Assembly (NCBI GenBank): GCA_025055285.1
Contig: JANWXM010000002.1
Coordinates: forward strand, 62,239 to 126,238
Source: Saprospiraceae bacterium
Lineage (GTDB): Bacteria > Bacteroidota > Bacteroidia > Chitinophagales > Saprospiraceae
Reading direction: 5' to 3'
DNA length: 64,000 nt
Part shown: positions 6,166 to 19,389 of the stretch, in pieces
Layout of the letters: every line of letters starts with the position of its first letter
Position numbering within the stretch: position 1 is the stretch's first letter
The notes under the pieces: model-generated
Seen by the model: the letters and a program-made list of their open reading frames with translations, nothing else
The model's database searches: none
What the model was told of the DNA's origin: nothing
Translations under genes and position numbers: made by a program

Positions 6166-6621
6166 ATGAAGAAGAAACTCATTTTAGCAGCTTCTGCTGT
6201 GGCTATTGTTTTAATAGCGCTGACTGCTTATAAAACGAAGGAGCAGCAGCAGCAAGAAATTGCTCAGGCGATTGCCATGAAGTTGGACGAGTATCGCCTG
6301 ATGAAGCAAGAGGAGTGTACGGAGCGAATCAACGCGGAGGCACGCCGCCGCTTTGAAGAATATTTAGCCTCGCTGCCTCCAGCAAAACCAGGAGCGAAAC
6401 CTCGTGCGGGTAAAGTCAAGCCGAAGAGCCCAACGCCCGCTGTGAAGCCCTTGCCGCAGCCTCAGACACCTCCACAAGACCCGCAAAAGCAACGCGGCGG
6501 TGCTGTTCAGGAAGGCAACATCGAACAACAGAAGCAGCGCGGTGGCGCTGTCGAAGAAGGCAACATCGAGCAGCAAAAGCGTCGAGGTGGCGCTGTCAAA
6601 GTGGAGGGTGGAAACAATTAA
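6166..6621 (+). CDS. Small membrane-anchored protein with C-terminal tandem repeats
   Basis: The 151-residue protein starts with one hydrophobic segment (residues 4-21) that could be an uncleaved anchor or a signal peptide. A charged helix rich in Gln, Glu and Arg follows (residues 25-70), then a Pro/Lys-rich linker. The end has three 15-residue imperfect repeats of the type QKQRGGAVxEGNIEQ (residues 107-149). The family is unknown to me. It follows the small lipoprotein gene by 24 bases and ends 15 bases before a strong terminator stem, so the pair makes a short two-gene operon. Confidence 0.7.
   Translation: MKKKLILAASAVAIVLIALTAYKTKEQQQQEIAQAIAMKLDEYRLMKQEECTERINAEARRRFEEYLASLPPAKPGAKPRAGKVKPKSPTPAVKPLPQPQTPPQDPQKQRGGAVQEGNIEQQKQRGGAVEEGNIEQQKRRGGAVKVEGGNN
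6484..6618 (+). repeat. Three 45-bp tandem repeats inside the small membrane protein gene
   Basis: Three in-frame 45-base units run from 6484, 6529 and 6574. Units one and two encode almost identical 15-residue peptides and the third is diverged at its end. Such units can change number by slippage or unequal recombination. Confidence 0.8.
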
Positions 6622-9062: not shown

Positions 9063-10061
9063 TCATGGCTTCGGCAGCGGATCCCAGCCGCCGCCGTGGT
9101 AGTGCATAGAAGAACGGACGTGCTCTGGCGCCAGTACTCGAAGCGCAGGCCCAAAACGGCGAAGCTCAGCGTACATCTCGGGATTAGGCACGACAGTCAA
9201 ACAGAATACGGCACGCTTTTCGTCGCGCTCTAAAAGCCGTTGAGACGCATGCAGAGGTTTCGTCTCCAAATACCGCGATAACAGCACAGTTGACTCAAAT
9301 ACCACTTGCGTAGGCACCGCTCCTTCTGGTCGAGACACACCTATTATATCCTGAAAATAAGTATCTGGATTGAAGAAGATATTGGGCTGGAAAGGATGCT
9401 CCGAAACTGCCACACGACAGATCCGGTCCAAGGCCAGCGTGTGAATCTTACCCTCGCCCTCGTTGAGCCCAAGACAAAACCACCGATTGCGATATTCCTT
9501 AAGCAAATAGGGGTGAAAAACGATCTCGTAGGGCTGCTCGAAGGTGAAAGGGTGATACAGCACGCGAAGCGCCTGCTGGTCGTGCGCTGCCGCATACAAG
9601 GGCGCCAGCCATTCCAACCCGGCCACATGTTCGTTCGTTTCAAATTGAATAAGTGTGCGATTGGGAAAACGAGCCAGGCCTTCCATGCGCGTCAAAATAC
9701 CCTTTAAAGCCTCCAACTGAGGCAAGCCTTTGAATTGCTGCAACACACCCACCACCTCTCGTAAAGCCTCTATGTCTGTCTGCGTCAGTGGCCTCTTCTC
9801 GATGGAAAATTCAGGATCCGAGTAAAAATACCGGCCCTGCCGACACTCAATGGGGGCCCCAAACCCGCGCGGCGGCTCGCTCCGCATCAGACTGATGTCG
9901 TAGCGCAACATGCGCTCGCTTACGCCGGAACTCACCCCAAACGCCTCTCGCAACTGCTCGCCGACTTCGTCTGCCAGCTCGGCAATCGTCCACCGACGCC
10001 GGCGCCGAAAACAAGCATCCAGCACCCGATACCGAAAAGCAGCGTGTTTGTTCGTTGGCAT
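9063..10061 (-). CDS. WYL-domain transcriptional regulator
   Basis: The protein has an N-terminal winged-helix region (residues 1-90, with RRRWTIAELADEV) and a WYL domain of about residues 130-240 with YHPF, KEYRNRWFCLG and LALDRI. A C-terminal WCX-like extension follows. WYL proteins are ligand-sensing regulators and are often found beside CRISPR and other defence genes; several bind nucleotides or nucleic acids. I start at MPTNKHAAF, the usual family start; the frame is open for 22 more codons to an ATG at 10127. It is divergent from the type III CRISPR operon, so it may control that operon, itself, or both. Confidence 0.88.
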   Translation of the reverse strand: MPTNKHAAFRYRVLDACFRRRRRWTIAELADEVGEQLREAFGVSSGVSERMLRYDISLMRSEPPRGFGAPIECRQGRYFYSDPEFSIEKRPLTQTDIEALREVVGVLQQFKGLPQLEALKGILTRMEGLARFPNRTLIQFETNEHVAGLEWLAPLYAAAHDQQALRVLYHPFTFEQPYEIVFHPYLLKEYRNRWFCLGLNEGEGKIHTLALDRICRVAVSEHPFQPNIFFNPDTYFQDIIGVSRPEGAVPTQVVFESTVLLSRYLETKPLHASQRLLERDEKRAVFCLTVVPNPEMYAELRRFGPALRVLAPEHVRSSMHYHGGGWDPLPKP

Positions 10062-10138
10062 AAAAATTTTTTCGTTTCGTGGCAAATAGGTTGCAATCGC
10101 CTTCGCCTTTTTTGCCCTAAAAAGCAATGCTGACCATG

Positions 10139-10407: not shown

Positions 10408-10659
10408 GGATGACATAAAACTGCGAAGGAAGTTAGTTACCCTCGAGAAGGGTTAAAGACGGTGTAAGGTGCTTAGAAATCTACAGTTCCCGGTATTTTC
10501 TTGACTAAAATAGTACCTCATGTTAGTAATGTATTGATCCATTTTGTAGGAATTACAAAACGCATAAGTTTACATGACATTAGTGTAAAAAGTTTTTGCT
10601 GCGGTTTTTTCTTGATTACCGAAACAATATCAGTCTCTCTGAAGAATAAATGTCTACTT

Positions 10660-12288
10660 ATGAAAGAATACCGACCCGGACAAGGCATTTCAGAGTACAC
10701 CACTCTCTTGCATGGCGACGTGTCAGGCATTCAGGATTTTATCTTCAATGTTCGAAGCGAAGGTGCAGCCAAAACACTTAAGGCGCGTTCCTTTTTCGTC
10801 CAGGCCCTTGCTACATTGTGCATAAACATGATAGAGGATCGGCTTGGTGAAGAAAATTGCCTATTGTTTTATAATGGTGGTGGAGGGTTTAGTGTTTTCT
10901 GCAAAAACTTGAGTGAGGAGACCTTTGCAGACTTGCAAAAAACTATTCAGAGCGACCTACAGGACATGGAAATTTATCTTACCTTAAGTCGAGCAGAATT
11001 GGACGCTCAAGACTTCTCCAAGACCTGGAATAGAATTCGACGGACAGCAAGGCGAGATAAGTTACGCAAGTTCATAAACCATCAGGATGCTTTTACACCT
11101 CAAAAACGCTATAAAGCTAATGACGAACACTGGAAGAAGTTTGCGGGGCGGTTGATTAGAAGTCAGGGATTCGACGACGAAGGCATACCTGGAGCACAGA
11201 AGATCGTTAGAGACACGATTACCCTCTTTGGCAAGCATCTGAGGCTAACTCATGAGCCCAAATCGCAGCATCGGCCAGATGACATCAATTGGCATCTTCC
11301 TGTGTGGGATAGAGCGCTCATGGATATGGACGCCACATGGATGGATTACATCAACCGGCGCAATCAAAAGGATGATCCAGACGAAGAAGAAAACAACGTT
11401 CGTCCGGGCATGATCATAGACTTTGAAACGATGGGCCATTTCGCCAAAAAACGCACGGGTACGGACAAAATAGCCGTGCTCAAAATGGATGTAGATGATT
11501 TAGGCGTTTTATTTTCAACAGTAAAACATTGGGATCAAAGTAAGAAGACTTCGGACGCACTTAAGTACTTTTTTGAGCAAGCGTTGCTAAAACTTTGGCA
11601 GGGTGGTTTTACGTCGGGGATAACCGGAGAGCACGTCTCTTTCCAACAAACCATATATCCTATTTTTTCCGGTGGTGATGATTGCCTCATCATCGGCGCC
11701 TGGGATGCTGTCTTCGAGTTTGCCCTGGCCGTCTATAAGGCATTTCAATCGTTCATGAAAAGTAGACTCGTTGAACTTCAACTACAGAAATTGCCAACGC
11801 TTTCGGCAGCAATTATTGTAGTAGACAGTAGATTCCCCGTTGTTCGCATGGGCGCCCTCGCAGAAGAAGCGCTTTCGTTAGCCAAGAGTGCTGCCGATGG
11901 AACCAAAAATAGAGTATTTGTCTTCGGAAAAGTACTCACATGGACTGAATTTGAAAAAGCGCATAGCATAGCCAACAATCTGGAGCGCCTTATAAAGGTG
12001 GATAATGAGCCACGTAGTATTCTCCAGCGCATTCGGAGTAGTCACACAGGTTTTGAAAAACAGATGCGCCGTGCCATAGAAGAGGGACGCATTCATAACC
12101 CTGCTGTGTGGCGATTAATGTATTATATCCGGCAGTCAAAAAACAAAGATAGCCTGCAAAGTATTATTGAAGAGTACCAGAGGGCTCTCATCGAAGCAGT
12201 TACTAAGCGTATTTACACTAACGCTGACCTGTTTCCTGTTGCCGCCCGGTGGGCCGAATTTAAAACAAGAAAATCTGATAACGATTAA
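10660..12288 (+). CDS. cas10: Cas10/Csm1, type III-A large subunit without an HD domain
   Basis: Cas10 is the large subunit of type III effectors and makes cyclic oligoadenylate after target RNA binding. The 542-residue product starts almost directly in the first palm domain (GDVSGIQDFIF, residues 19-29; YNGGGGFSVF, 71-80). The second palm has KMDVDDLG at 275-282 and the cyclase motif GGDD at 338-341. A helical C-terminal region follows. There is no N-terminal HD nuclease domain and no CxxC zinc finger between the palms, so the protein is shorter than usual Csm1 (about 750 residues). I infer cyclase activity without ssDNA cleavage. The start at 10660 is preferred over a TTG-initiated frame at 10501. 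csm2 follows after 13 bases. Confidence 0.93.
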   Translation: MKEYRPGQGISEYTTLLHGDVSGIQDFIFNVRSEGAAKTLKARSFFVQALATLCINMIEDRLGEENCLLFYNGGGGFSVFCKNLSEETFADLQKTIQSDLQDMEIYLTLSRAELDAQDFSKTWNRIRRTARRDKLRKFINHQDAFTPQKRYKANDEHWKKFAGRLIRSQGFDDEGIPGAQKIVRDTITLFGKHLRLTHEPKSQHRPDDINWHLPVWDRALMDMDATWMDYINRRNQKDDPDEEENNVRPGMIIDFETMGHFAKKRTGTDKIAVLKMDVDDLGVLFSTVKHWDQSKKTSDALKYFFEQALLKLWQGGFTSGITGEHVSFQQTIYPIFSGGDDCLIIGAWDAVFEFALAVYKAFQSFMKSRLVELQLQKLPTLSAAIIVVDSRFPVVRMGALAEEALSLAKSAADGTKNRVFVFGKVLTWTEFEKAHSIANNLERLIKVDNEPRSILQRIRSSHTGFEKQMRRAIEEGRIHNPAVWRLMYYIRQSKNKDSLQSIIEEYQRALIEAVTKRIYTNADLFPVAARWAEFKTRKSDND

Positions 12289-12301
12289 ATGCAATTGTCA
12301 T

Positions 12302-12721
12302 ATGTTGTACCAACAACAATCTCCAAAACAAGTAAAGCCTGAAAATGAGCATCAACAGTATCTAAAACAAAGATGCTCTGACATTCTTAATTTCAAGAAC
12401 ACGAACAACATTAATGAACTTCTAAGTCACCTACAAAAGTACGTGGAAGATTGTGGAGGATTTGTTACAACTCATCAGTTGCGCAATATCTTTTCCAAGG
12501 TCAAAACACATCGAATCAAGACAGCCCAACAGATTCAGCTAATTCGTCCACAGTTAGCTTATATCGCTGCTCGTCAGGGTAATGACAAGGCTAAAGCATT
12601 TGTCAATTTCCTGCAAAATATTATTTGCGAAATAAAAGACGATAAGCAGGTAGAACACTTTGTCGCTTTTTTCGAGGCCATCGTAGCGTATCACAAATTA
12701 TATCACGGCAATAAAAAGTAA
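12302..12721 (+). CDS. csm2: Csm2, type III-A small subunit
   Basis: The 139-residue, mainly helical protein matches Csm2 in its second half: VTTHQLRNIFSKVKT, then LIRPQLAYIAARQG and a C-terminal FFEAIVAYHKLY. Csm2 forms the minor filament along the crRNA-target duplex. The frame is open upstream into cas10, but the start at 12302 leaves a normal Csm2 length and removes the overlap. Its codons look more AT-rich than those of csm3 and csm4. csm3 begins eight bases after its stop. Confidence 0.9.
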   Translation: MLYQQQSPKQVKPENEHQQYLKQRCSDILNFKNTNNINELLSHLQKYVEDCGGFVTTHQLRNIFSKVKTHRIKTAQQIQLIRPQLAYIAARQGNDKAKAFVNFLQNIICEIKDDKQVEHFVAFFEAIVAYHKLYHGNKK

Positions 12722-12729
12722 TAAGCAAT

Positions 12730-13455
12730 ATGGAACTGAAAGCCAAGATTTTCATCACAGGTAAAATCCGAACCCTCACGGGCCTTCACATCGGTGGCGC
12801 TAAATCGGCCTTAGACATCGGTGGCATTGACCTCAACGTCATCAAAAAGCCGGATGGCACTCCATACATTCCAGGCTCCTCTCTGAAAGGCAAGCTCCGC
12901 TCTTTGTTGGCCCGCGTAGCGGGCACTGTAGCCATTACGGCGAGAGAGGCCAAAGGTGAAAAGTGCGATGTAAAAGATGCGCCGTACATCTGCGAAATCT
13001 TTGGTTTGCCTGGCGACGACTCCATAGAAGACAGGGATAATAGCGCATCCACGCGCTACGTAACGCGCCTTATTGTGCGCGATGCGGACCTAGATACCAA
13101 TTCGGAGGTCTTTGAAAATGAACTTGAGTTGCAGTATTCTGAAGTCAAATGGGAAAACAGTATCAACCGAAAAACGGGAACTGCCCAAAATCCTCGCCAA
13201 TTAGAGCGTGTACCTGCGGGTGCTGTATTCCACTTCGAAATGGTCTATGACGATTACGAAGACGGTAAAACGCAGGATCACTTGGAGCGTATCCGTTTGG
13301 CTATGATGCTTTTAGAAAGTGATTATCTCGGTGGCCATGGCTCGCGCGGTTATGGCAAAATCGCTTTCGAGGATGTCCGATTTACGCGAAAGACCATATC
13401 GGACTTTGAACAAAATAAAGAAGCGCGTGAAATGGATTTTAAATACAAGCTATGA
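12730..13455 (+). CDS. csm3: Csm3, RAMP backbone subunit and target-RNA nuclease
   Basis: Csm3 forms the backbone filament and cleaves bound target RNA at 6-nt intervals. The product is 241 residues. It has GLHIGGAKSALDIGGID near the N-terminus; Asp34 in GGID aligns with the catalytic Asp33 of Streptococcus thermophilus Csm3. The RAMP glycine-rich segments PYIPGSSLKGKLRSLL (about 45-60) and GGHGSRGYGKI (about 200-210) are present. The complex should therefore cut target RNA. The stop overlaps the csm4 start in an ATGA arrangement, which suggests coupled translation. Confidence 0.96.
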   Translation: MELKAKIFITGKIRTLTGLHIGGAKSALDIGGIDLNVIKKPDGTPYIPGSSLKGKLRSLLARVAGTVAITAREAKGEKCDVKDAPYICEIFGLPGDDSIEDRDNSASTRYVTRLIVRDADLDTNSEVFENELELQYSEVKWENSINRKTGTAQNPRQLERVPAGAVFHFEMVYDDYEDGKTQDHLERIRLAMMLLESDYLGGHGSRGYGKIAFEDVRFTRKTISDFEQNKEAREMDFKYKL

Positions 13456-14495
13456 AAGCCATAATCCTTGCCTGTAAGCCGCGCGCTCGCTTTCACTTCG
13501 GAGGGATAGCGCCCGACGAGAATGCCTGGCTCAGCACCTCGGACGAGTGGCTCCGCAGCGATACGCTCTTTTCGGCGCTTATCAATATTGCTGCCGAAGT
13601 GTATCCAATAGCCGACGTTGAAGAACTCCTACATGCCTTCGAAGGTGGAAAAGTTCGCATATCCTCTGGCTTCTATCTGCTGGCAGATGAGGCCATGGAC
13701 ACGCCGCTTTTCCTGTTGCCTAAACCTGCTCATTATGCCTTAGAGGTTACAGAAAATTTTAAAGCGTTCAATAAAATAAAGTTTATTTCCAAGCGCGTTT
13801 GGGAGGCCGGTTGGGGTTGGGCAGAATGGCCAGAGCGATGCTGGTTTCTTCAAAACGGCGCAGTAGTAGTATCCAAAGAAGAACTGCCAAACCTGCAGGA
13901 GGAACAAATTAAGCGCGTCCGCCTATGGGAACAGGAAGATTACCCACGAGTCAAAGTACACACTACGGATCGCTCAGAGGGCTTCTTCTATCTGACGACT
14001 ACGACCATAGCCGACATCTCCAAGGTAATCAAGGGCTGGAGGGTACACTTTTATTTTCTGATAGATATGGAGCCCGGTTTTGAAAACAGCAGCGCCCATC
14101 GCCATCTCCAGACCGCTATTCAAATGCTGCCTTATCGCGGCGTTGGTGGTGAACGCTCCGTAGGTTGCGGTCAGATAGAGCAAGTCTTCACTCATGACTT
14201 CTCTTTATTGCCAACTTTTGATAGCCCGCTAAAGTGCTCTATATCCCTGACTTCACCTACACCTCAGGATTTAGCTAAAGTGCAATACTACTCTGTGCTT
14301 TCGCGCGGCGGGAGGCATTACGGTGGTCGGGGCAAGGAGTTCGATTTCGTCCGTATGATGGCTGAAGGCGCTGTTTTCGAGGGCCTTGCTCAGGGCGCCG
14401 TTCCCATCATCGGCCAGAATCTCGGCCATAAAGTTCGCCGCTACGGAAAGGCTTTTTGCTTGCCGGTGAAAAATATCGTTGAAAACTATATCTGA
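13452..14495 (+). CDS. csm4: Csm4, RAMP subunit binding the crRNA 5' tag
   Basis: Csm4 caps the 5' handle end of the crRNA and contacts Cas10. The 347-residue product has the typical N-terminal segment PRARFHFGG, followed by SDTLFSALIN, and the internal glycine-rich loop GGERSVGCGQI near residue 238. A second RAMP half follows, ending with KAFCLPVK. The ATG overlaps the csm3 stop and csm5 begins 14 bases after the csm4 stop. Length and order are normal for subtype III-A. Confidence 0.93.
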   Translation: MKAIILACKPRARFHFGGIAPDENAWLSTSDEWLRSDTLFSALINIAAEVYPIADVEELLHAFEGGKVRISSGFYLLADEAMDTPLFLLPKPAHYALEVTENFKAFNKIKFISKRVWEAGWGWAEWPERCWFLQNGAVVVSKEELPNLQEEQIKRVRLWEQEDYPRVKVHTTDRSEGFFYLTTTTIADISKVIKGWRVHFYFLIDMEPGFENSSAHRHLQTAIQMLPYRGVGGERSVGCGQIEQVFTHDFSLLPTFDSPLKCSISLTSPTPQDLAKVQYYSVLSRGGRHYGGRGKEFDFVRMMAEGAVFEGLAQGAVPIIGQNLGHKVRRYGKAFCLPVKNIVENYI

Positions 14496-14509: not shown

Positions 14510-15739
14510 ATGCAAAACACCACCATATCGTTGCCGTTGCGCCTGAAAGTCATCACGCCAGTGCATATCGGCGATGACAAGGGCAAAACCCTCTCGCCTT
14601 ACTGCGATTACGTCTTCTCCGACGATGGTCAGTACCTGCATTATCTCGACCTTAGAAAGATAGAAGAAGCTGTAACTAAAGCAAACGCGCTGGAGGAATA
14701 CATCCGCCTGATCGGGGCCATGGATAACAATCGCTCCGAAATGGACCTGAAGCGCTTCCTGACCGGTAAGCTGAGCTTGGCTGTTCCGCAAGTGACCCGA
14801 TGCCGCCTAGCGCAAAAAGGCCTGAAAAGCAGCGATAAACTCCATATCATGACTACTGTAAAGAATGCCGGTCAGCCCTATCTGCCTGGCAGTTCCCTCA
14901 AGGGAGCACTTCGTACAGCCATCCTGTATGATTGGCTCGTTTGTACAGAGGCAGGTAAGAGCGTTATCGAGGGTTACCGAGTCTTAATTGAAAAAGCAGC
15001 GAGAGAGTACTCGAAGGTTTCTACCTCGCAGCGTTCGCGCCATTCATCAAATAAGGAAATACGCCAAATAAAGAGTGAATTAGAAAAAAATATTTTTAAG
15101 GAAGAGGAATTATTCGGCTTTTTGAATTCAGGAAACAGAGCCCCCGATAGTCAGTACCTGCGCGTTCGCGACAGCCAACCTGTCTCTATAGAACAATTAG
15201 GCGTTTATGCCTTGAGGCGTATCCGAATTACTTCAGGCAAGGACAAAAGTGCCATTCCGCAAGTAGTAGAGGCTATCAAGCCGGGTACAGAGTTAGAAAC
15301 AGATATCTCAATACGACCAGAATTTCATAATAAATACTTTGATTATTGGAAGGACAGAAACTTCCGATCTATATTTGAAAATCTTAATGTATTTTCAAAG
15401 GACTGCATAGACAATGAGTTACATGAACTAAATGACGCTTTAGATAATGCTGAAAATTTGGATTTTAGCGATGAAATAGAAGCACTCGTTGAATTCTACG
15501 AAGACCTGAAAGCTAAAGCCAACAATGGCGCTATCTTCTTGCGTCTGGGCTTTGGCAAGACTATTAATGACAATAGCCTGATCTTAGCGTTGCTCTACGG
15601 TTTAGATAACGATGAGACATGGCACTTATTTCGGGAAGTCATTCATGGCATTCGAAGACGGGACGCCTTCTTTCCCGTTACGCGAGCCATAGCACCAGAT
15701 GGCAAGCCTATGGGGTGGGTAGAGGTGCTCCCAAATTAG
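14510..15739 (+). CDS. csm5: Csm5, RAMP subunit at the crRNA 3' end
   Basis: Csm5 sits at the 3' end of the crRNA and is needed for crRNA maturation. The 409-residue product begins with the RAMP strand LPLRLKVITPVHIGD and has the glycine loop YLPGSSLKGALRTAILYDWL near residue 125. A charged helical insertion follows. The C-terminus contains LRLGFGKTINDNS, the second glycine-rich element. The part after about residue 160 looks more AT-rich than the beginning. A 53-base gap with a small hairpin separates it from the CARF gene. Confidence 0.92.
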   Translation: MQNTTISLPLRLKVITPVHIGDDKGKTLSPYCDYVFSDDGQYLHYLDLRKIEEAVTKANALEEYIRLIGAMDNNRSEMDLKRFLTGKLSLAVPQVTRCRLAQKGLKSSDKLHIMTTVKNAGQPYLPGSSLKGALRTAILYDWLVCTEAGKSVIEGYRVLIEKAAREYSKVSTSQRSRHSSNKEIRQIKSELEKNIFKEEELFGFLNSGNRAPDSQYLRVRDSQPVSIEQLGVYALRRIRITSGKDKSAIPQVVEAIKPGTELETDISIRPEFHNKYFDYWKDRNFRSIFENLNVFSKDCIDNELHELNDALDNAENLDFSDEIEALVEFYEDLKAKANNGAIFLRLGFGKTINDNSLILALLYGLDNDETWHLFREVIHGIRRRDAFFPVTRAIAPDGKPMGWVEVLPN

Positions 15740-15792: not shown

Positions 15793-16932
15793 ATGAAAAA
15801 GACCTTTATCGCTACTGTGGGCACAGGAAAGGGGGTCGAAAATGGACTTCGGTTTTCTATCGAGTCAAATAATCCATCGAAAGTGTATCTAATTGTTACA
15901 CAAGACAGTGTAAAGACTGCAGAGTCTGTTCGTGACTCGTTCAATGATAGGGAAATTGAATTCACGCAATTTATTTACATTAAAGATGAAAACGACGTAG
16001 ACTCTATTTTCATGGAAATATCAAGGAAATTGATGGCCATAATTGATAGCGGCATCTCTCCCAGAGAAATAACAGCAGACTACACGAGCGGAACCAAGGC
16101 CATGTCTGCTGCACTGGTCTTGTCCGCTATCGAATATGGTATAGAAAAAATAAGCTATGTATATGGTAGCCAGAGAGACCCAGAGACTGGTAGGGTGCTC
16201 ACAGGTTCAGAGCGATTAAGTGTGCTAACACCGAATACTGCTCTGGAAAAAAGAGTAATCGAGCAAGCCGTTAGATTATATCACTTATATCAATTTAAAG
16301 CCGCTACGCAACTATTAGGCGAGCATACCTTTTCGGCTAGAAGAAAACCCTATGTGGACATCCTGAAGCAACTCATCGAAGGACATGATAAATGGGATAA
16401 GTTCGAGTTTGAAGACGCTGTAAAGTTGTTTTCAAACTTGAGCAAAGAACAGAAGGAAAAGATTAGAGAAATAAAAGTTGACAATGAATTAAACAAAGTA
16501 AATGCCTGGCTTAGAACTCTTTTAGATGATGAGTCAGGCGAAAAAAGGGTTGTGGATATGTTCTACAACGCCTGTCGCCGGGGTGAAGAAGGAAAGTACG
16601 ATGATGCAGTGGCCAGGTTGTATCGAACACTTGAGATGATAATTCAAAATGAATATAAATTATTGTATGGAAAAACCACAGAAGTAGGGCTAATGGATAC
16701 TTGGAGGGCGATAGAAAACTCTGATGCGCCTGCTATCAGGTTGCTCAATCAAAACAAGGATGAAATAAAAAAGATTCTGCATTCGCGGAACTATTCCATT
16801 CTAGCTCATGGATCAAAGCCCGTTAAGCCAGAAACATACGAAAAATTTAAGGGGATCATACAAGGTATAATAATACCGCCCAACCGTGAAGTAAGATTTA
16901 TGTCTATTCATGCAAAGCACTTTCATCTATAA
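15793..16932 (+). CDS. CARF-HEPN ribonuclease, TIGR02710-type (Csm6-like)
   Basis: The 379-residue protein has an N-terminal CARF domain (about 1-150), which binds cyclic oligoadenylate. It begins FIATVGTGKG and has ADYTSGTKAMSAAL at residues 95-108, the signature I associate with the TIGR02710 / Cas02710 family. The C-terminal part is helical and ends in a HEPN nuclease with Arg332 and His339 in RNYSILAH, an R-X6-H catalytic motif. It should be an RNase switched on by the Cas10 product. It starts 53 bases after csm5 and is followed two bases later by the second nuclease. Its base composition looks AT-rich compared with csm3 and csm4. Confidence 0.88.
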   Translation: MKKTFIATVGTGKGVENGLRFSIESNNPSKVYLIVTQDSVKTAESVRDSFNDREIEFTQFIYIKDENDVDSIFMEISRKLMAIIDSGISPREITADYTSGTKAMSAALVLSAIEYGIEKISYVYGSQRDPETGRVLTGSERLSVLTPNTALEKRVIEQAVRLYHLYQFKAATQLLGEHTFSARRKPYVDILKQLIEGHDKWDKFEFEDAVKLFSNLSKEQKEKIREIKVDNELNKVNAWLRTLLDDESGEKRVVDMFYNACRRGEEGKYDDAVARLYRTLEMIIQNEYKLLYGKTTEVGLMDTWRAIENSDAPAIRLLNQNKDEIKKILHSRNYSILAHGSKPVKPETYEKFKGIIQGIIIPPNREVRFMSIHAKHFHL

Positions 16933-16934
16933 GA

Positions 16935-18296
16935 ATGCCGTTGACTGCAATGCACACCCTCCTCACCTTCCTCGGCGCCATCCCTTACGATAAGACACAA
17001 TATTACTTCGATGGCACGCCCGAGCAGGCCAGCGTGCCCACGCCATATGTGCAAGAGGCCATTTTACGCCATCTGGCGCTCAAGGGTAAGCGGATAGAGC
17101 GCGTAATAGTATTTACTACTGAAAATGCCCAAGAAAATAATTACGAGCGCTGTATAAGAAGTTTCGATAAAAACAGTGGCATACCTGAGTACGATAAGCA
17201 AGAACCAGGGCTGCAAGAACGCTTGGAGCGGTTAAAACGCGAAAATATCATTGATGATTACAAGCGCGTATTAATCTCAGATGGTAACACAGAGAGAGAA
17301 ATTTTTGAGATTTTCTCTGTTCTTTATGAGCAAGTAGCAGCGTTGCCAGAGGGCTCAGCCATAGCGTTAGACCTGACGTATGGCTTTCGCTCTTTACCGA
17401 TGCTGTGCATGTTGTTGTTGCACTATGCGCGTACCCTCCACCATCTTCGGGTGAGTCATATTTTCTACGGCAACTATGAGGTAGGGCGACAAGAGAAGCA
17501 AGCAAAAATTCAGGAGCTGAAAAAATCTGGTGCCTCCGAAGAAGAAATGGAGAAAGCCAACACCCAACCCCCACGAGCGCCGGTATTGGAATTGAGCGCT
17601 TTTGTCGAACTCCAAGAGTGGACGATAGCTGCCCACACCTTTGTGCGTTCGGGCGATGCGTCGCTGCTGGTAGAGCGCATGAACGAAGAGGAGCGCGCTA
17701 CTGGCGAGGCTTTGCGCACCTTTACGGACCAGATTCTGACGTGTAGGGGCAGCGCACTTGCGACACAAAGCAACGTAGAAAGCATCCGAGAGAAAATCCG
17801 AGCACTTCAAGGAAAGTCGAATTTGGGCGCTCCTCTAAAGCCCATCTTAGAGCGCGTAGAACGCAAGTTGGAGCCCTTTGCCAATCGAACTGCGCGCAAT
17901 GGCTTTGCCGCTGTAGAATGGTGCATTGAGCATAACCTTATTCAACAAGGTTTTACCTTGCTGGAAGAGACATGTAAAAGTTACGTCATTGAGCAAATAT
18001 ACGGTATAGAGCGCCTGCAGGAGGCCAATTTGAGAGAGTGCGCTAAATTGGCTTTAAATCGCGTCCCAGAAGGCAAATGGAAGCCCGAACAAGAGGAATA
18101 TGCGAAAAAAATAACGGAATACCTAAAGCGAGAATACCCGAATGCCTTTAGGGCCTATCGCCGGCTCACTGGTGAGAAGGGCTTGCGCAACGATATCAAC
18201 CATGCCGGTTACATGGCTTCTCCAAAGTCCCCCCAAGAACTCAAAGAGGCCTTAAAAGGAGTTTATGTTGAGATAAAGGAAGCCTTCCAATTGTAA
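16935..18296 (+). CDS. csx2: CARF-HEPN ribonuclease, TIGR02221/Csx2-type
   Basis: The 453-residue protein starts with LLTFLGAIPYDKTQYYF, typical of the Csx2 (TIGR02221) branch of the Csx1/Csm6 group. ALDLTYGFRSLP (144-155) is the CARF ligand-site segment corresponding to DxTxGxxxM in other members. A helical region follows. The C-terminus has Arg418 and His423 in RNDINH, an R-X4-H HEPN motif. The protein should be a second RNase controlled by cyclic oligoadenylate, clearly different in sequence from its upstream neighbour. The start at 16935 lies two bases after the previous stop; Met6 is also possible. Confidence 0.87.
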   Translation: MPLTAMHTLLTFLGAIPYDKTQYYFDGTPEQASVPTPYVQEAILRHLALKGKRIERVIVFTTENAQENNYERCIRSFDKNSGIPEYDKQEPGLQERLERLKRENIIDDYKRVLISDGNTEREIFEIFSVLYEQVAALPEGSAIALDLTYGFRSLPMLCMLLLHYARTLHHLRVSHIFYGNYEVGRQEKQAKIQELKKSGASEEEMEKANTQPPRAPVLELSAFVELQEWTIAAHTFVRSGDASLLVERMNEEERATGEALRTFTDQILTCRGSALATQSNVESIREKIRALQGKSNLGAPLKPILERVERKLEPFANRTARNGFAAVEWCIEHNLIQQGFTLLEETCKSYVIEQIYGIERLQEANLRECAKLALNRVPEGKWKPEQEEYAKKITEYLKREYPNAFRAYRRLTGEKGLRNDINHAGYMASPKSPQELKEALKGVYVEIKEAFQL

Positions 18297-18301
18297 TACG
18301 A

Positions 18302-18658
18302 ATGCTATTAAATCTATCGAACCACCCTTCGTCCGCCTGGCCAGCAGAACAATTGCGGGCTGCTGTAGAACAGTATGGAAGTGTGCAGGATATGCTCTTC
18401 CCAAATGTGCCACCCGAGGCTGATATAGATGCAGTTCGCCGGTTGGCAGAGGAGTACAGCCTTCGCATTCAAACTTTGGATCCAAAGCCTACGGCTGTCC
18501 ACCTAATGGGAGAGATGACCTTCACTTACCAGCTTGTTTCTCTTCTTCAGGCTGTAGGGATGTTGTGCATCGCTAGCACCACGTTAAGAGAGGTAACAGA
18601 AGAAGGCGAGAAAAAGATTTCTCGCTTTCGCTTTGTGCGTTTCCGCCCGTATTTTTAG
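18302..18658 (+). CDS. Csx20-like small protein, candidate ring nuclease
   Basis: This 118-residue protein ends the CRISPR operon, starting five bases after csx2. I recognise its C-terminal half as like Csx20: MGEMTFTYQLV (69-79) corresponds to a QGDFGATYLMV-type segment, ASTTLREV (91-98) to the STTxR motif, and FRFVRFRPY (109-117) to the FxHVRFRxY end. The N-terminus (LLNLSNHPSSAW) also resembles the LFLLFSHxLT start. Csx20 has been reported, as I recall, as a ring nuclease degrading cyclic oligoadenylate. The protein is shorter than usual Csx20, and a widespread unnamed Bacteroidota family may be a better match. A function as off-switch is inference. Confidence 0.6.
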   Translation: MLLNLSNHPSSAWPAEQLRAAVEQYGSVQDMLFPNVPPEADIDAVRRLAEEYSLRIQTLDPKPTAVHLMGEMTFTYQLVSLLQAVGMLCIASTTLREVTEEGEKKISRFRFVRFRPYF

Positions 18659-18672
18659 GGAGCAAATTTTCT

Positions 18673-19389
18673 TCACTCCGACATATCCATTGTGTGGAAC
18701 ACGTTGAGCACGTCGTCGTCTTCTTCTAGGCGGTCAATGAGTTTGATGACCTGTTCGGCCTCTTCATCCGAGAGTTTTTTCGTTACGGTGGGTATCCATT
18801 CGGCTTGAGAACTGACCGGCTCTATGCCGCGGTCTTCGAGCGCCTTTTGCATTTTGCCGAAGTCTTTAAAGTCTGCATACAGAATGACTTCACCGTCTTC
18901 GTGTTTGACGTCTTCCAAGCCGGCATCGATGAGTTCAAGTTCAAGTTCTTCCCAGTTGCGCCCGTCATCTTTGATTTTAAAGACCGCTTTTCGATTAAAG
19001 AGATAACTCACGCTTCCCGAAACGCTGAGTGCACCTCCACAGCGGTCGAAGTGCAAGCGCATGTTAGCTACGGTGCGCGTAGGGTTATCGGTAGCCGTTT
19101 CCACCAACACAGCGATGCCATGAGGCCCATAACCCTCGTACAAAATTTCCTGGTAATTTTCAGCATCCTTGCCGCTAGCTTTCTTTATGGCATTTTCGAT
19201 GTTGACTTTTGGCATGTTTGCCTGTTTGGCATTCTGAATGGCCAAGCGCAGGCGAGGATTATATTCTGGATTTGGCCCGCCTGCTTTTACAGCAATGGAA
19301 ATCTCGCGTCCTATGCGCGTAAAAGTCTTGGCCATGTTCGCCCAGCGCTTAAATTTTCGCTCTTTGCGGTATTCAAAAGCGCGTCCCAT
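18673..19389 (-). CDS. yebC: YebC/PmpR family protein
   Basis: YebC-family proteins act as translation or transcription factors; recent work ties them to relief of ribosome stalling. The 238-residue product has the family start MGRAFEYRKERKFKRWANMAK, residues VKAGGPNPEYNPRLR (35-49) and the conserved YEGYGPHG near residue 85. The usual acidic C-terminal end (LEEDDDVLNVFHT) is complete. It converges on the CRISPR operon with a 14-base gap, marking the edge of that island. Confidence 0.95.
   Translation of the reverse strand: MGRAFEYRKERKFKRWANMAKTFTRIGREISIAVKAGGPNPEYNPRLRLAIQNAKQANMPKVNIENAIKKASGKDAENYQEILYEGYGPHGIAVLVETATDNPTRTVANMRLHFDRCGGALSVSGSVSYLFNRKAVFKIKDDGRNWEELELELIDAGLEDVKHEDGEVILYADFKDFGKMQKALEDRGIEPVSSQAEWIPTVTKKLSDEEAEQVIKLIDRLEEDDDVLNVFHTMDMSE

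Follow-up and report, generated by a model that had tools for sequence, protein, structure and literature searches.

A Csx20 protein of a branch left unnamed by the NCBI model closes a type III-A CRISPR operon of a Saprospiraceae bacterium and is a predicted ring nuclease

The window, which is the whole stretch of 64,000 nt that was analysed, is part of contig C22 of a Saprospiraceae bacterium genome and contains a type III-A CRISPR operon with a divergent regulator gene beside it. The parts of the locus, with the profile evidence for each, are as follows:

9063..10127, minus strand: WYL-domain regulator, divergent from the operon (PF13280 and PF25583; PADLOC WYL E 7.1e-22)
10501..12288 (longest ORF), plus strand: cas10/csm1 (TIGR02578, 273.8 bits, cut-off 170)
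12167..12721 (longest ORF), plus strand: csm2 (PF03750 E 3.3e-19; TIGR01870, 58.5 bits, cut-off 30.6)
12730..13455, plus strand: csm3 (TIGR02582, 212.6 bits, cut-off 90)
13452..14495, plus strand: csm4 (TIGR01903, 132.3 bits, cut-off 55)
14510..15739, plus strand: csm5 (TIGR01899, 127.8 bits, cut-off 38.3)
15793..16932, plus strand: TIGR02710/Csm6-like CARF-HEPN effector (TIGR02710, 147.3 bits, cut-off 83.9; PF09670 E 6.7e-22)
16935..18296, plus strand: csx1-type CARF-HEPN effector (TIGR02221, 87.5 bits, cut-off 76.25; PDLC01824 E 2.8e-88)
18302..18658, plus strand: csx20, 118 aa, predicted stand-alone ring nuclease (PDLC01397 E 2.5e-39; NF040559, 32.4 bits, cut-off 70; AF2 pLDDT 97)

The csx20 gene is an intact open reading frame of 118 codons with an ATG start, and is the final gene of the type III-A operon, after the Csx1-type CARF-HEPN gene. 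It is separated by 5 nt from the preceding frame, which ends at 18296, and the following gene (18673-19389) runs in the opposite direction; csx20 therefore closes the operon, as the sequence-only reading had stated. The segments quoted in that reading are all present, MGEMTFTYQLV at residues 69-79, ASTTLREV at 91-98, and FRFVRFRPY at 109-117. A chance open reading frame is ruled out by the full-length profile match and by residues that are invariant in all 50 aligned rows.

Upstream of csx20 and on the same strand, the locus comprises Cas10, which carries a cyclase motif (GGDD at residue 391), and Csm2-5, and is of type III. The Cas10 protein matches positions 214-378 and 434-753 of the 753 positions of TIGR02578, while the N-terminal part of the model, with the HD domain, is unmatched; the N-terminal HD domain thus appears to be missing from the Cas10 of the window. 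Judged by eye, an ATG at about 10660 is a likelier start for cas10, and an ATG at about 12302 a likelier start for csm2, than the starts of the longest frames. Both CARF-HEPN effectors retain a HEPN-type R-x4-6-H motif, RNYSILAH at residue 332 of the Csm6-like protein and RNDINH at residue 418 of the Csx1-type protein. The Csm6-like protein matches solved Csm6 chains (best E 4.9e-7), and no solved relatives of the Csx1 protein were found by phmmer at E 0.01. The GGDD motif in Cas10 and the HEPN-type motifs in the two effectors indicate that the operon can produce a cyclic messenger, to which its two ribonucleases would respond.

A direct-repeat search found no CRISPR array within the 64,000-nt window, and neither Cas1 nor Cas6 had a match on contig C22. 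Another contig of the genome, C16, contains a CRISPR array in which the repeat (GTTTCAATTCCAACTGGTTCGATTACGAG) occurs 41 times and which runs from 4895 to at least 7511 (L089), together with cas1 and two Cas6 matches above cut-off. Two 45-nt tandem copies that are 80% alike occur in the window at 6484-6573, within a small ORF (6166-6621), the product of which contains repeated units like QKQRGGAVEEGNIEQ. Homologues of the WYL regulator also directly adjoin csx20 at two other loci (L018 and L028) and on the Runella plasmid pSP2_2.

The name Csx20, which the sequence-only reading had given, is borne out by profile search. The PADLOC model PDLC01397 'Csx20' matches residues 1-117 of the protein over model positions 1-114 of 114, with E 2.5e-39. 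The protein also matches the Csx20 end of the fusion model PDLC01843 CARF_HEPN_CSX20 (E 4.7e-21), the first part of which is matched by the gene just upstream (E 1.5e-81). The mixed PADLOC model 'Csx15/20/peptidase' gives E 3.6e-15 and 54.4 bits, below the 132.4 bits of the Csx20 model. Pfam gives nothing at E 1, the Crn1 profile NF040581 has no match to the protein at E 1, and the sequence matches to solved structures are weak and probably due to chance (best E 0.12 with the protein and 0.058 with the alignment). The NCBI model for CAS_Csx20, NF040559, matches at 32.4 bits (E 9.8e-8) and does not reach its naming cut-off of 70 bits.

This low score is a property of a whole branch. All 25 branch members in one alignment match NF040559, with a best E of only 2.4e-11, and all 25 match PDLC01397, with a best E of 1.9e-44. 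Among 395 sampled genomes of the phylum, 21 match NF040559 at E 1e-4, and the cut-off is passed by one (G069), which has a protein of the other branch; the best member of the branch of the window protein reaches 51.2 bits. In a profile-profile comparison, these 25 sequences align with three proteins of the NCBI-named branch (two annotated as csx20 and a third that passes the NCBI cut-off) at a probability of 98.4 and E 5.1e-15, with the alignment beginning at residue 10. Csx20 thus comprises two or more branches, which join at this E-value. The cut-off of NF040559 is regarded here as a naming limit set by one model, which favours the other branch, and not as a defining property of the family. 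By its profile matches, the window protein is an ordinary member of the Csx20 branch that the NCBI model leaves unnamed.

The suggestion that this might be a short branch does not hold, as 118 aa falls among the lengths of its relatives (115 aa in L010 and 134 aa in L029). That it is poorly described is true of its naming, given 32.4 bits against 70 and one of 21 matching genomes over the cut-off. The branch scores well below this cut-off, and its plasmid homologues accordingly lack the Csx20 name; two of four are labelled 'hypothetical protein' (Rhodothermus) and two 'CRISPR-associated protein' (Aureispira and Runella).

PDLC01397 matches 28 of the 395 sampled phylum genomes, with the own genome included, although the matches of two (G069 and G258) are weak or partial and that of a third (G423) is split. 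In this last genome, the two halves of csx20 match in different frames (contig C97, 468-841, L054/L057), which probably reflects a disrupted gene or a mistake in the assembly. Among relatives, 4 of 60 genomes match, again including the own genome. A peptide scan of genome contigs, which finds close relatives only, yields 24 named loci, 23 in Bacteroidota and one in a Chlorobiota assembly, and the nearest relative is from a Saprospiraceae bacterium with 72% identity. A search of 50,697 phage records gave no match at E 0.01, and of 18 stretches of viral contigs that matched the peptide pattern none encodes a relative. A protein of the other branch has two weak phage matches (E 6e-3 and 9e-3). 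With 28 genomes found by the PADLOC model and one over the NCBI cut-off in the same sample of 395, the CRISPR off-switches of the phylum may be undercounted.

The homologue set consists of 50 distinct rows, including the window protein, in which identical proteins are merged and from which seven partial rows are removed (L054 and L057 twice each, L055, L056, and L058). The residues N4, N7, H8, W13, Q17, P34, G70, and F109 are identical in all 50. The AlphaFold2 monomer model, made with a 25-sequence alignment, has a pLDDT of 97 and the order E2-6, H15-25, E28-30, H42-57, E65-69, H72-84, E88-101, and E104-116. Only a short turn is located between the last two strands, in agreement with the antiparallel end reported in CARF proteins (PMC13148439). 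H8 directly follows strand 1 in the model, and this invariant histidine is the likely catalyst.

Fold comparison of the model gives best Z scores of 7.4 for SAVED-CHAT, 6.8 for Csm6, 6.3 for Sis0811, 6.2 for Cam1, and 5.3-5.5 for Sso2081, with unrelated Rossmann-type folds reaching up to 6.6 in the same comparison. None of 1000 re-aligned chains reaches Z 8, and Foldseek gives nothing at E 0.001, its best E being 5.1e-3 for Cam1. Near the top of both lists are chains of CARF, SAVED, and ring nuclease proteins. In the structure prediction that the sequence-only reading had proposed, the order of strands and helices fits a CARF-like fold, and the matches to solved ring nucleases are moderate only.

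The neighbours of csx20 across the homologues are effector genes of several kinds. Csx20 and Csx1 are fused in one open frame in 6 of the 50 homologues, and in a further 24 a Csx1-profile match lies no more than 1.5 kb upstream, the distance being at most 101 nt in 20 of them. For the 20 other rows, the upstream proteins of ten were scanned and comprise seven CARF-PD-(D/E)XK nucleases, one CARF-RelE, and two Cmr6. The remaining ten are one copy after csm5 (L064), two orphans (L052 and L053), and seven outside the classification (L019, L049, L060, L062, L063, L067, and L073). The partner is thus exchanged while Csx20 persists, and this swapping, together with the Csx1 fusions, fits an enzyme whose substrate is the messenger common to these effectors.

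A divergent Csx20-like gene (PDLC01397 E 1.3e-22) is present in two genomes of one genus, at 7743-8156 of L094 (G242:C3) and 7652-8065 of L095 (G431:C6). The two copies are 84% identical and share the same chromosomal neighbourhood. They retain the N-H-W-Q motif and GE, and have SHAGKR in place of the STTxR of the others. No CRISPR genes are seen beside them by eye, and two flanking ORFs that were scanned have no PADLOC match. This gene may represent a relative that was domesticated outside CRISPR.

In published work from 2025, one Csx20 degraded cA4 fully in a buffer with EDTA, whereas its cA3 activity was very minor, being complete at ten-fold more enzyme, and cA6 was not degraded (PMC12409355). 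In the survey of that study, Csx20 is the commonest ring nuclease, with 78 loci, and has a particularly strong association with Csx1; it had been predicted earlier in a CARF survey (ref. 20 of PMC12409355). A 2025 classification speaks of Crn1-Crn5 (PMC12669027). The names 'Csx15' and 'Csx16' do not occur in its main text, and it was not returned by a full-text search for 'Csx20'; Csx20 may carry a Crn number in this scheme.

The csx20 gene very probably encodes a small CARF-like ring nuclease that is the off-switch of the type III-A operon. Direct support comes from family identity, operon context, linkage or fusion to effectors in relatives, and the conservation of His8 and its neighbours, whereas for the window protein itself cA4 specificity, cleavage, a dimer, and the catalytic residue are predicted. 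The earlier term 'candidate ring nuclease' is thus too weak for the Csx20 family, given the published cleavage of cA4, and appropriate to the window protein as a prediction. In the proposed mechanism, the Csm complex would meet its target RNA, upon which Cas10 would make a cyclic oligoadenylate, most likely cA4. The messenger would activate the two CARF-HEPN ribonucleases encoded just upstream of csx20. Csx20, probably as a dimer, would then bind cA4 and cut it to linear products without metal, leaving the ribonucleases silent. His8, in the loop after strand 1, may help catalysis like His13 of CliCsx15, which is located in the loop that links strand 1 to helix 1 and the replacement of which (H13A) abolishes ring nuclease activity (PMC13148439). 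The equivalence of the two histidines is one of loop position and not of superposition.

It is conceivable that the protein binds cA4 without cutting it and damps the signal as a sponge. Some members of Csx15 are non-enzymatic and rely on such sequestration (PMC13148439), and the organism of the assayed Csx20, and hence its branch, is not named in the main text of PMC12409355. This reading is unlikely, however, as the assayed Csx20 is an active enzyme, and all 50 homologues share the candidate catalytic His8 together with N4, N7, and Q17. An action on Csx1 by contact, as a protein partner or inhibitor and not on the messenger, would agree with the six fusions and the very tight linkage. It is nevertheless highly improbable, because Csx20 is also encoded behind seven CARF-PD-(D/E)XK proteins and one CARF-RelE among ten scanned, and two divergent copies occur where no CRISPR gene is seen by eye.

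A ring nuclease with cA3, cA5, or cA6 as its main substrate, rather than cA4, is very unlikely. The CARF-PD-(D/E)XK and CARF-RelE effectors, which are partners of some homologues, use cA4. The commonest partner is Csx1, a CARF-HEPN family defined as cA4-activated, and surveyed ring nucleases in effector-bearing loci accompany cA4-dependent effectors only (PMC12409355). On the other side, one of the two effectors of the window is Csm6-like, and cA6-dependent Csm6 proteins have been described, while the assayed Csx20 had the minor cA3 activity given above (PMC12409355).

If Csx20 is a ring nuclease of cA4, its range may extend beyond the operon. The genome has a second Cas10, of the III-B type by PADLOC; it is encoded on contig C23, as are Cmr5 and a CARF-PD-(D/E)XK effector (L091, 2059-11606). 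By eye, this contig also contains other Cmr-like genes, GGDD in the Cas10, and a nuclease motif; solved relatives of the CARF nuclease were not found by phmmer at E 0.01, and no ring nuclease was noticed beside the III-B system. A single csx20 was detected in the genome. Crn1 (E 0.01) and DUF1874 have no match in the genome, with one control detected for each, whereas Csx16 and Csx3 have no genome match but no control was detected either, so that their absence is not established. With these four searched, Csx20 is the only ring nuclease found in the genome, and it may serve both the III-A and the III-B systems. The CARF-PD-(D/E)XK proteins presumably belong to the Can1-2 effectors. Can1-2 effectors are reported to be without intrinsic ring nuclease activity (PMC12409355), and the service of Csx20 to the CARF-PD-(D/E)XK system would therefore be useful. 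The wider proposal is a tentative one and rather doubtful as a whole: an unnamed and perhaps never assayed branch with a motif-I histidine as catalyst, and a single enzyme that resets in trans the messenger pool of III-A, with its two CARF-HEPN ribonucleases, and of III-B, with its CARF-PD-(D/E)XK effector. If one enzyme does serve both systems, loci with no apparent ring nuclease may borrow one.

The Csx20 family and its cA4 activity are known from published work, and the window protein adds a new member. What is mildly new is its branch, marked by an invariant N-H/W/Q motif and by scores far short of the NCBI cut-off. The remaining interest is in the annotation gap of this branch, the motif-I histidine as a candidate catalyst, and a possible common off-switch for two type III systems.

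Compared with known ring nucleases, Sis0811 (7pq3) aligns with the model at Z 6.3 and an rmsd of 3.0 over 100 residues, and Sso2081/Crn1 (7ygh) at Z 5.3 and an rmsd of 2.8 over 98 residues. Both differ from it in sequence, with identities of 9 to 14% in the alignments, and unrelated folds score as high; the NCBI model for Crn1 has no match to the window protein or its genome. Csx15 (CliCsx15 and PfCsx15) is alike in the CARF superfamily, to which the window protein is predicted to belong, and in the histidine of the strand 1-helix 1 loop of CliCsx15. In contrast, its dimers stack head to tail into filaments (PMC13148439), and it is joined to the window protein only through the mixed PADLOC model 'Csx15/20/peptidase'. 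The NCBI-named branch of Csx20, with Arcobacter cloacae WP_129013804.1 and Persicobacter psychrovividus WP_338399351.1, is of the same family by the profile-profile comparison. By eye, both branches have Ser-His after strand 1, Gln in helix 1, a Gly-acid pair, an STTxR-like segment, and an F-x4-5-R ending, although the pairing of His8 with the Ser-His of the NCBI-named branch was made by eye, as the profile-profile alignment begins later, at residue 10. The branch of the window protein carries the motifs N-x-S-N-H-P-x3-W-x3-Q, HxMGE, and FxFVxFRxY, while FSHxLxxxQ, GD, and FxHxxxR occur in the three proteins from the other one. Csx20 as modelled by PDLC01397 shows no difference that would rule out membership, and the window protein resembles it in its full-length profile, size, type III site next to Csx1, and a predicted fold that fits CARF.
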